Position numbers and translations under genes: made by a program
Notes under the pieces: model-generated
The model's input: the letters and a program-made list of their open reading frames with translations, nothing else
What the model was told of the DNA's origin: nothing
Databases searched by the model: none
In this document: positions 27,714-63,083 of the stretch, in pieces
Layout: each line of letters opens with the position of its first letter
Numbering within the stretch: position 1 is the stretch's first letter
Assembly: GCF_964355755.1 (NCBI RefSeq)
Contig: NC_092680.1
Coordinates: forward strand, 1,059,001 to 1,123,000
Reading direction: 5' to 3'
From: Antedon mediterranea
Lineage: Eukaryota > Echinodermata > Crinoidea > Comatulida > Antedonidae
DNA: 64,000 nucleotides

Positions 27714-30700
27714 TTAATACATATTTTTCGTCAAATCCAAGTATGTACTTGTAGGCGTGTGTTGTTTCTGATCCTCAGTGTGCGCGTGCGCATACACACC
27801 GGTATATGAGTACGTCTTCTTTTCTGGTAATACCTCATAGACATTACCAATAGGCTCTATGACGTCATCATCCATATATGGGTATTTCTTCTTTTCTGGT
27901 AATCCCTCATAGATATTACCAACAGGCTCCGTGACGTAATCACTCATCTTTGATTTTTTGTCTGGGGCATGTCCTATTACAATAGGGTTATCATACCCGT
28001 TGAAATCAATAAGAGGTTTTATATCCTTTCTGTAAAAATAGTCAAATCATATTTCGGAAAATGTGATTTTTATAATAATATGTATTCATTAATTATGATT
28101 AATATATTCAATATTATAATAAAAGTAATTTTAACAAAAGATACCGAATGTTTTAATGTGCCTATATAATAATTGTAACAAGTGTCACGTTATAAGTCAT
28201 TCAAAATAACTAATAATTTCCTTGATCATGACGTTTAATCATGAGCTACTTTCTACGTGTGAACGCGATGTTACATAGATATTAAGCTGTAAACACAATC
28301 ATAATCGTTTGCCTTACCTAGGTTTGCAAATGCAACAGGCTAAAACTATAAATACCATGACGATAATCGCAGCAGAAATACCAACAGCAGGAACCACACC
28401 TACATAACATTATTTAAAAGATATTTTTTAAATACAACATGTGAACGAACGTTACTTTATTCAATTCAATTCAACGTAAACATTTTCTTTCTTAAGCTTG
28501 GTTCCCACTAGAACGTAACGCAAGGACGTAAACGCAACACAAGCGTTTTAACCAATGACAAGCGAAGTTATAGACAGTTAGCAATAACAAGCGAATAAGC
28601 CATCGCTTGTGATTGGTCAATTCACTTGCGTTGCGTTACGTCTTTGCGTTGCGTCGCTAGAGTGGGAACCACGCTTTAGATCTTTCATAAACAATCCAAT
28701 CAAACATACATCAGCGTTGGGTGCAAATTGATATTTTAGGATATTTTAGGGTATTGTAGCTGGTTTTGTGCAAGTTGCTGTTGTTCATTTCCTGGTGCAA
28801 TGTTTTCTCTTTTTGGTTTGCAAGTTTCTTATATGGATGTTTATCCAAAATAAAGGAAATAAATGAATGAAAACTGATCTGACATGCATAGACATTACAG
28901 ATACAATGTTTAAACGTACACTATGTTATGACAGTGTCGGTGCAGTGCATTTTAAGGTATATTATAACCAAAGAACTTATACTTATATTAGTTCTTTGAT
29001 ATAACCTACCTCACAATCATCATATACAATGACAAGATCTATATTCCAACCATCAAATTGAATACAATAGAAGATTAACGTATTACCATAACAACTAAAT
29101 ATACTGAACCTTCCTAATATCACAAAATCAATAGGTTTATAAGTTGTTAATATTTTTATGAACATGTTTTTCTGTCTTCATTTTGACAGTCCTAATATAC
29201 CTGATGACGTACTTACCCATTAGATGTCGGTTGAAATAGTCCTGAGTTTTCTTGTTGGTTTCGACAGAATTTGGGTTGGTTACCTGCGAATCAACTAGAC
29301 CCAATGTTGTCCTTATTGTCTGTATAGTGGTTACTTCAACTGGAATGGCAAAACATTAATTTAACATTAGCGGTCATGTTTTTGTTAATTTGTTAATTTT
29401 AATTTTTTTTATTTCATCATAATAAGACATTACAATACATGTTTTTGTTAATACCTCTAGTAATTGAAATGTACCACTTTACGTCTTAATGTTATTTTCA
29501 TTTCTGTAATTTATATATATTTTGTTTGCTTTTGTCCGTTTTGTTTTGTTCCTGACACGAGCATTGACTTCATTGGTGACGTAAATGTTATTTTTGATTA
29601 AGATTCAGATTCGATTTATTAAGTCATTCATACATAGTACAATGATAATTGTTTGTTGGCAGAAAAACACAAACAAAACAATATACACATAATATTTATT
29701 GATTTAAACATTACGAATATACATTTTAGAGTATAAGAAGATAAGAAGACATGTCTGTAACAAATATATTTTATATATGAAACTCACTTTCATCGCATCT
29801 GTCTCCGGACCAGCCAGCCTGGCAGATGCACATGTACTCGCCATTGGGACGATCAATACAAGTCAATGCGTTCACACAAGGACTGTTATTGCAGGCCAGT
29901 TCTGGAAATAAGATAATAATGAAATTTACTGTAATACTGTAGTATACATTATGCCTATGTTTATTATTTACATTAGGCTACCTTAACCACTTTGTTAATG
30001 TTATATTAAGACATGCTTAGCAGACGTGGGCTACATTATTCGAACATTTAAGGCTATACTGACTATTTTTTGGAGTTAGTGTACGAGTTTCTGTCGACAC
30101 TATCAGAAAATTGTATTTTTTAAATCTGATTTTTAGGAGAATTGCTTACTCGAAGTAATTTTTCAATAATACTGCCCTCATAAACTGCCTACTAACCCGT
30201 GTCACAGAGGCTTACTGCCCTGATAAACTGCATACTAACCCGTGTCACAGAGGCTTACTGCCCTGATAAACTGCCTACTAACCCGTGTCACAGAGGCTTA
30301 CTGCCCTGATAAACTGCCTACTAACCCGTGTCACAGAGGCTTCCGGTCCAATGTTCGTCGCATAGACAGTAAAAAGTCATTAATCTCTGGATGTTAAAAC
30401 ACACACCATTCAGACAAGGACTAGATTTACAAAAGTTTTCCTCTGTAAAATAAAATGATTATAAAAAACGCTTTCTGATTACAAATGTTTAATTAATATT
30501 CGTTCCACAGTTAAAGATCTGTCAATATGGTTATGTTATGAAATGTGTAGACTTACCATAGGTATGCGTCATGCGTTTTTCTTCTTCAACAAACGTGTTT
30601 ACACTGCACCACATGACATTAGGGAGAGGCACCATTTAAGCGCCTTGAGCACTTTAGTGGATATACAGTATGTGCGCTGTATAAATCTTATTATTAATAT

Positions 30701-60600: not shown

Positions 60601-63083
60601 GCTCAGTTTTGAGTGCTCTCAACTCTAGATTTGGTGGGTTCGAACCTCTACGAATACAATTTTTTTTAAATAATAATAATTTTTTTGTTTTGAAAGAGCG
60701 ATATTTAGAACTTTGACTAAATGTCAGGCCTAGGCCTAATCAAAAGTGGACCTTTTTTTAAAAAAATCAGGAACAGAGTTGTATGGCATTAAATTGTTAG
60801 AAAATTAAATAAACTACTATTATAAAACCTCAAAAAGAAGCCCATGTGATCCTGCATTTGTTAGTACTCTAGGGTGGTACTCACAGATGGGGTTCGATCC
60901 TCTATGGATATATTGTTTTTTTTAATGGAAAATTAATTTTTTTAAAATTTTTCTTTTCTTTTTTCTGTTTTAGCAAGGTTATATGTGTATTTATGACGTA
61001 ATGATGAATTACGTAATACATGTATAAACAGACTCTTATCAACTGTTACGTCATGTACTTTGTGGCGTAACGGGTAATGCTCAGTTTTGAGAGCTCACAG
61101 ATGGGGTTCGAATCTCCATGGATATATTATTTTTTTTATATTCTATTTTCCTCCTGCAATTTTTTAGAACTCTTTGGTGGGCCACTTTTCCAGATGGACT
61201 TCTTTTCGAGATTACTTTTACAAACTAAAAGAGGGGAGCTGCTGGGTTCCCGACTGGAAAACTGTTTTTCTACATTATTTGAATAATCTTCTAATGTAAT
61301 ATTACAAAATAAAAATGTAATGCGGCGTGTTTACCGCGAATGACTAACAATACCATTTTTTCCATTACAACAAAATAAACTCATTTGCATAATAACGCAC
61401 GGCATACCAAACTGTTTAAAATAGAGCTTGTGTTTTAAACATATTTCGTGCCCACAAATGGTTCTAAAATTAGCACCCTGTGAATTACAAATTTAAACAA
61501 ACCCAATTTGTGTTTTTTATGTAACATTAGGGTTGAGGGATGGTAAGAGGATAGGTGCAAAGAGGGACCATTTCAAAATATATTCTTTATCCGTAACGAC
61601 ATATTTTTGGCTTTTATGTTTTATAAATAATATAATTGTAATTATTAATTATTAAGAAGCAACTGTCAGTAATAAAGTTTAATTATGCTGGAATAGTACT
61701 ACCAAACTCACAGTAAAAAAATGTGCTTTAAATGGGACAAAAAAATGGTTTATGTATTTATTGTTAAAAGGTTTGGATTGGATGTTCCATTCATCGCCAA
61801 GCAATCATTTTGTATAAACGTAGATTTCTACCGGTATATTAAATCTATCAAAATAGTATTTTTTTAAAGAAAATCGGCCTGTCCTCAACATTATGATTCT
61901 GTTCTCGAGCTGTTTTACTGGTTTTCAGCTATTAAAGCAATTGTCGTAGAAGGAAATAGGTAAATGCGAAGCATCGTCGTATTATTATGTGCGGGTATTT
62001 TTCAAGATGGAAATCCATTAGACAGTGTATATCACGATCGGAAAACACCTACATCGTTAAACCTAAATTCGTTTTAATTGTCAGTAACTAGTTATCTAAC
62101 TCAACTTAATTTTTAGTAAACAGGGTTACATCAGGTGGTTAAAATCAGTACCGAAAGTATGAACCAACTTTATATATAGGCCTACCATCGAGTAAACATT
62201 ATAGAAGTAACCCGCGATGTACCGAATTTTGCCGTAACGTAAATGTAGGCCTATATATAGATTATCATTAAAAATATAAAAAAATACCTACATTGTTCTT
62301 CACATCTTGACACAAAAATATTGGCGCATGGAAATGTTTCCAAAGCCAAATCGTATAGACCCGGATCATAATCAAACAGTTCTTGTCGGTTACTGATATT
62401 ATTGTGGACACCATCGGTGTGTTCTTGAACAACATCAACATTAAAAAACTTCTGTACTCCTTCAGCGAAATATTCGCGCCTGTTAGTGGCGGCGTATGTT
62501 GACTCCCACAGTCCTGCTGCAATGGCCTCGTTATATGTTACTTTCAAGCGGTTGTTAAAATCTGAATCCAAAGTATTCATGCCGATTATGTGGATTGCGT
62601 GTGCAAATTCATGAACTCCAATATCTTCTTTATACCATCTGTCCTGTCCCCTCGGAAAACACAATAGATTCTCTTCTGCCACTGTTGACACAGGGTTGTT
62701 TAGAGTTCCGCCAAATCCGCGGGCACGATCATTTTGATCGTCATCCAAGTAAGAATATTCTGGGATTTCATTGGTTAGTTCTTCGAGACCGATAATTGAA
62801 TAACGTGCACAATTATTGTGCAAAGCGTTCCGGACATCTTGGCGATCGGCGAGCATAAACCGAACGATGTAGCACGCGCGTAACATTGCCGCTTCTGACA
62901 CGGCCTCTGATGATAGAATAGGTATTCCGTAAGCGTAGGTATAGTTATAATAAAAAGAGTCTAGGCTGAATTCTTGTCGTAGGCTATCCGGGATCGGGAT
63001 TACTCGGTCACACATTGAGTAAGAAAGTGCGTCTCCTCGTGGAATACAATCGGCAGCCCGACGTATATATCGTGATACATTTG
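57620..63083 (-). CDS. Membrane-anchored HExxH metallopeptidase with Thr/Ser repeat stalk, incomplete at both ends
   Basis: Exons in transcript order: 63083-62292, 58839-58429, 58176-58111, 57996-57912 and 57673-57620. The first (264 residues, phase 1-1 using donor GTAGGT) has HEFAHAIHIIG and, about 45 residues on, NRREYFAEGVQKFF. This is a zinc HExxH with a downstream FAE-type third ligand (gluzincin-like layout). Further on are GVHNNISNRQEL and DYDPGLYDL. The next exon encodes EGTTSAT/EGTTSDT 7-residue repeats, about 17 copies, then a short Thr/Ile stalk, a TM helix (AVFIVILLIISVCV) and SPKPIPNGDKDQED. The last two exons have the same phases as the TM and juxtamembrane exons of the SRCR/EGF gene. 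Start and signal exon should lie right of 63083. Joining the peptidase to the stalk across 3.4 kb is inferred from phase. Confidence 0.6.
58921..59010. repeat. 43-bp direct repeat, two copies
   Basis: CAACAGTGTGTCCCTTACAG to AATAGGTTGGC occurs twice in tandem with no difference noticed, in the intron upstream of the Thr/Ser repeat exon. Confidence 0.92.
59200..62262. repeat. Repeat-filled intron between peptidase exon and stalk exon
   Basis: TGGCGTGTTGACCGCGAATG to ACGGCATACCAAAC occurs at about 59212, 60010 and 61322. tRNA-like pieces with GGTTCGAACC-type B boxes are at about 60575-60655, 60880-60910 and 61055-61115, the first and last after matching GTAATACATGTATAAA.AGA sequence. 60240-60480 is a separate SINE-like block on the minus strand (TTAGCTCAGTTGCCTGAGC, GGGTGCGATTCCCACG). 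61430-62262 is a third copy of the dispersed repeat from 11-12.8 kb and ends about 30 bp from the peptidase exon. Confidence 0.65.

Follow-up and report, generated by a model that had tools for sequence, protein, structure and literature searches.

Four adjacent cell-surface genes in Antedon mediterranea have parts of one membrane-anchor design in common and wholly different outer domains

Background

Most inferences of exon shuffling come from genes that are old and scattered, and CEACAM heads are all of Ig type. In dog CEACAM, the TM and cytoplasmic exons have been exchanged together as a unit (PMC2110893). In Botryllus, uncle fester duplicates the region of fester exons 6-11, and its 5′ half is unrelated; the two heads are equivalent (Ig and sushi) and there are three TM segments (PMC12065747). 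The part of the sea urchin SRCR superfamily account used here describes SRCR domains that occur together with EGF-like domains and others, tandem duplication, and exon-intron divergence among paralogs (PMC10855680).

The crinoid Antedon mediterranea has four adjacent cell-surface genes with parts of one membrane-anchor design in common and outer domains that are wholly different. In contrast to the Botryllus pair, the heads belong to separate domain classes, and there are four genes with one TM each; in contrast to dog CEACAM, the heads differ in kind. The mix of SRCR and EGF-like domains, the tandem duplication, and the exon-intron divergence of paralogs resemble what the same part of the sea urchin account describes, whereas an anchor block common to SRCR and non-SRCR genes is a feature of Antedon that does not appear in that part (PMC10855680). 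Module swapping itself is already known; what is new is the variety of head classes within one small cluster. Neighbors with common anchors and different heads, together with a likely relative of the source module on the same chromosome, would make the steps of receptor assembly testable in close relatives.

Layout of the cluster

The window is the 64-kb stretch C11:1059001-1123000 (GC content 34%), and the genome searched comprises 354 Mb in 18 contigs. The gene models are exon models read from genomic DNA of one assembly, and from these we infer the full transcripts. Genes 1, 2, and 3 are in tandem, all on the minus strand with their TM exons. Gene 4, the fourth neighbor, is just upstream of gene 3 and outside the window (about C11:1126.3-1130.3 kb). 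By class, the heads are EGF arrays, SRCR domains, a zinc peptidase, and Ig domains. The head counts of an earlier note on this DNA were confirmed: 31 EGF in gene 1, three SRCR and nine EGF in gene 2, and an HExxH peptidase with a Thr/Ser exon in gene 3.

We consider it likely that this is a tandem cluster of type I membrane genes, at least in part of one ancestor, in which the anchor was kept while symmetric phase-1 exons served to replace or amplify the outer part. On the simplest account, a gene that already carried the anchor was duplicated, and the exons lying between its signal and its anchor would then have been replaced; the linker, TM, and KP exons would have been kept, as perhaps was the signal exon. 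Every exon that we propose was replaced is phase 1-1 and could therefore be inserted without a frame shift.

Genes 1 and 2

The predicted exons of genes 1 and 2 are as follows (window positions).

44167..44233, minus strand: gene 1 signal-peptide exon, 23 residues, phase-1 donor; resembles the gene 2 signal exon
42288..42713 (approximate), minus strand: Gly/His/Ser/Asp-rich exon of gene 1, phase 1-1, with splice phases taken from the sequence
29788..41438, minus strand: 31 EGF exons of gene 1, phase 1-1, E3/E4-type units amplified
29217..29339, minus strand: gene 1 linker exon VEVTTIQ..., phase 1-1
28318..28399, minus strand: gene 1 TM exon (TM1), 82 nt, phase 1 to 2, AG acceptor
27714..28029, minus strand: gene 1 terminal exon, cytoplasmic tail with YEGL, YEVL, and YLDL
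55304..55367, minus strand: gene 2 signal-peptide exon, 22 residues
52575..54594, minus strand: three SRCR domains of gene 2 (Pfam PF00530)
48271..51862, minus strand: nine EGF exons of gene 2 (E1-E9), phase 1-1
47576..47704, minus strand: gene 2 linker exon VESTTTT...SSSDLPIG, phase 1-1
47152..47236, minus strand: gene 2 TM exon (TM2), 85 nt, phase 1 to 2, AG acceptor
46908..46958, minus strand: gene 2 SPKP exon (SSPKP), 51 nt, phase 2-2
46407..46614, minus strand: gene 2 terminal exon, tail with YDEL-x10-YMEL, an ITAM-like pattern

Both genes read as EGF-repeat type I receptors, with EGF domains, a signal peptide, a single TM, and phase-1 exons in the exon models. The three SRCR domains of gene 2 have Pfam E-values of 2e-12, 1e-18, and 7e-31 and score 47.6, 67.6, and 106.9 bits (cut-off 26.1), which places them in the SRCR superfamily. 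In gene 1 the position of the SRCR exons is occupied by the Gly/His/Ser/Asp-rich exon, which is covered by an open frame (42276-42761) and has no match in Pfam.

The signal exons of the two genes are alike (S1-S2, shuffle p 1e-4), as are the tails (T1-T2, 46% over 41 aa, shuffle p 6e-4). EGF24-31 of gene 1 and E2-E9 of gene 2 are in the same order, and each exon has its own counterpart as best match (EGF27-E5 is the least clear of the eight pairs). Genome-wide, the best match of gene 2 E8 outside itself is E8 of gene 1 (62%); the next matches are at ≤57% with much weaker E-values. Judged by sequence, the paralogy of genes 1 and 2 runs from end to end, through the signal exon, the final eight EGF exons, and the tail. 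They are whole-gene duplicates whose N-terminal modules differ (a Gly/His exon in gene 1, three SRCR domains in gene 2), as does the extent of EGF-exon amplification. The idea that genes 1 and 2 were shuffled separately is contradicted by this paralogy and was rejected because their EGF exons are collinear.

The E3/E4-type units are repeated in gene 1 between the first two and the last eight EGFs. Two of the EGF blocks (32971-34517 and 35199-36745) are 97.7% identical over 1.55 kb. Because the near-identity includes introns, it suggests that part of the expansion is recent or was homogenized by gene conversion.

A 185-bp sequence occurs at window positions 28493-28679 and about 44736-45121 in direct and inverted copies (≤96% identical). 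It is possibly a mobile element.

The shared anchor

Gene 3 and the anchor of gene 4 were modeled as follows (window positions unless C11 is given).

C11:1123619-1123676 (L009:619-676), just outside the window: gene 3 candidate signal exon MNNLWVIFVIGMVQMYICDG
62292..63083, minus strand: gene 3 zinc-peptidase-like exon with HEFAH and EYFAE, phase 1-1
58429..58839, minus strand: gene 3 Thr/Ser-Glu-Gly repeat stalk exon, phase 1-1
58111..58176, minus strand: gene 3 linker exon DNSTTIIIT...TSDLQIG, phase 1-1
57912..57996, minus strand: gene 3 TM exon (TM3), 85 nt, phase 1 to 2, AG acceptor
57620..57673, minus strand: gene 3 RSPKP exon, 54 nt, phase 2-2
56583..56661, minus strand: gene 3 candidate terminal exon SDDEFVFYRYNAIGIEYNSLWRTMCF-stop with phase-2 acceptor TTTTAACAG, predicted only
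C11:1127527-1127620: gene 4 TM exon (TM4), phase 1 to 2
C11:1126826-1126870: gene 4 KP exon, 45 nt, phase 2-2

The three TM exons of genes 1 to 3 are present where the earlier note had placed them, with phase 1 in, phase 2 out, and an AG ending (AG followed by GTAAG or GTAGG). The 51- and 54-nt SPKP exons that it described after the TM exons of genes 2 and 3 are also present and are phase 2-2. A phase-1 start and an AG ending are common features of type I proteins, and AG is the consensus exon end. The shared features might then be generic, with genes 3 and 4 related to genes 1 and 2 merely by ordinary exon design. TM1 fits such a reading: in a composition-preserving segment shuffle (p floor about 1e-4) it is indistinguishable from chance against TM2 (p 0.57) and TM3 (p 0.29), so its kinship rests on gene-wide collinearity. 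The linker exons are low-complexity, with weak and mostly non-significant similarity (the ends in genes 2 and 3, SDLPIG and SDLQIG, give p 0.04), and they too fit ordinary design.

The remaining anchor exons do not. TM2-TM3 is at the floor of the shuffle (p about 1e-4) with 62% DNA identity over 176 bp (E 5e-9), and TM3-TM4 has 65.5% DNA identity over 116 bp (E 3e-7) and shuffle p 0.02, so both pairs beat shuffles and DNA expectation, in exons that are short and with most tests picked post hoc, after data inspection. The KP exons of genes 2, 3, and 4 (51, 54, and 45 nt, all phase 2-2) match too, with p 0.004 for J3-J4 and p 0.02 for J2-J3 and with residues NGDKDQEDNEL against IGDKHQVNEL. Two unrelated control TM exons (n=2) both run phase 1 to 1, and their scores are at chance level. 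We regard a merely generic resemblance as improbable.

TM2 and TM4 compared directly are at chance (p 0.63), and TM4 is tied into the anchor group through TM3. The linker of gene 4 starts with VEITT. The tails of genes 2 and 3 have no similarity (T2-T3 p 0.43). The earlier note had proposed one anchor cassette under different heads, with TM exons that group together; this holds for genes 2 and 3 and extends to gene 4 (TM2-TM3-TM4), and fails for TM1, which is ungrouped by sequence. The shared unit exceeds a TM cassette and takes in several 3′ exons (linker, TM, and KP).

The heads of genes 3 and 4

Gene 3 is the real chimera. Its peptidase exon has 78% DNA identity to C11:7067370-7068179, with homology limited to about the exon, and the 5′ part of its stalk exon has 70% DNA identity to an exon at C11:7069245-7069350. 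This paralog, 6 Mb away and close to a multidomain gene rich in ShK, has peptidase and stalk exons in series and in the same order as gene 3, so we assign the peptidase exon and stalk to one gene. The arrangement is consistent with a peptidase and stalk module copied into an anchor-bearing gene, with the transfer probably in that direction. In our proposal, gene 3 would have received a module related to the distant gene, and gene 4 would combine a related anchor with Ig and, probably, FN3 exons.

Genes 3 and 4 could instead be old whole-gene duplicates of gene 2, with outer exons that gradually diverged or were lost and regained and an anchor inherited in place. Strand, adjacency, and phases all agree with such descent. 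So does the weak similarity between the signal exon of gene 2 and the candidate signal exon of gene 3 (p 0.017; DNA p 0.004), a weaker hint that gene 3 possibly shares its signal exon with its anchor relatives. For gene 3, the DNA matches in another gene context 6 Mb off argue for a copied module, and for gene 4 old duplication and module transfer are inseparable. We give old duplication little weight overall.

The peptidase exon scores 17.4-17.6 bits against the ATLF-type zinc peptidase family (PF07737), under the curated cut-off of 27.4, and a paralog in the same alignment has an E-value of 7.5e-6. PDB sequence searches gave no matches, and an AlphaFold model (mean pLDDT 33.6) was left out of the analysis. 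The exon keeps the HExxH motif and downstream Glu (HEFAH, EYFAE) expected of an active zincin, and it may function as one. A second peptidase paralog at C11:7051322-7052110 (L007; 45%) has HNLAH in place of HEFAH and is probably inactive. Exons around it on the same strand look like calcium-binding EGF, LDLa, and ShK, with ShK confirmed by Pfam.

Gene 4 belongs to the Ig superfamily (Ig_3 43.5 bits, I-set 42.5 bits). By eye it probably carries FN3 exons as well; the Pfam search gave no FN3 match at the reported threshold. Its candidate tail was read by eye only. Near gene 4 there are long repeats open in three frames (L009:7419-8960, RGHPYAGDTPMQGT).

Predicted products

The products are most likely cell-surface receptors or, for the peptidase, a tethered enzyme. 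The tail of gene 2, as read from its sequence, has the ITAM pattern YxxL/I-x6-12-YxxL/I (YDEL-x10-YMEL). That pattern was not found in the gene 1 tail, where the gap between YEGL and YEVL is about 20 residues. Signaling through tail tyrosines could occur in gene 2 and, less clearly, in gene 1.

A more speculative suggestion, which we hold only tentatively, is that heads have been exchanged repeatedly in this cluster, where one signal-plus-anchor frame gains unrelated recognition or enzyme modules. If true, the products of head exchange include a zinc peptidase tethered to the membrane and an SRCR/EGF receptor of ITAM-like type that could act in self/non-self recognition.

Searches for further anchors

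A degenerate TM-start pattern has eight matches in the 354-Mb genome. Among them, TM2, TM3, TM4, and one on C3 (phase 1 to 1) look like type I TM exons; the pattern was built from TM2-TM4, so these three match by construction and the result is that other matches are few. A candidate at C11:1296894 was rejected as a type I anchor; by its reading, the exon encodes part of a sugar-transporter-like protein. Using tblastn with the cassette exons around the locus, we found no more copies. Searches with single proteins (TM2, TM3, TM4, and the two tails), which are weak for exons this short, found no more cassette genes, and the TM2 and TM3 protein queries missed TM4.

When the 174 kb around the locus were scanned with phase taken into account, this and a narrower 104-kb scan recovered the four anchors and a single TM exon of a receptor kinase (phase 1 to 1), along with some spurious hydrophobic frames. 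A receptor-kinase-like gene with a TM exon of phase 1 to 1 lies at C11 about 1156.9-1161.6 kb (L017). On the plus strand of the window, at about 14400-25200, there is a CUB-like exon followed by a set of WSC-like, Thr-rich (TTEVETT), and discoidin-like exons that is present twice, with all domains named by eye.
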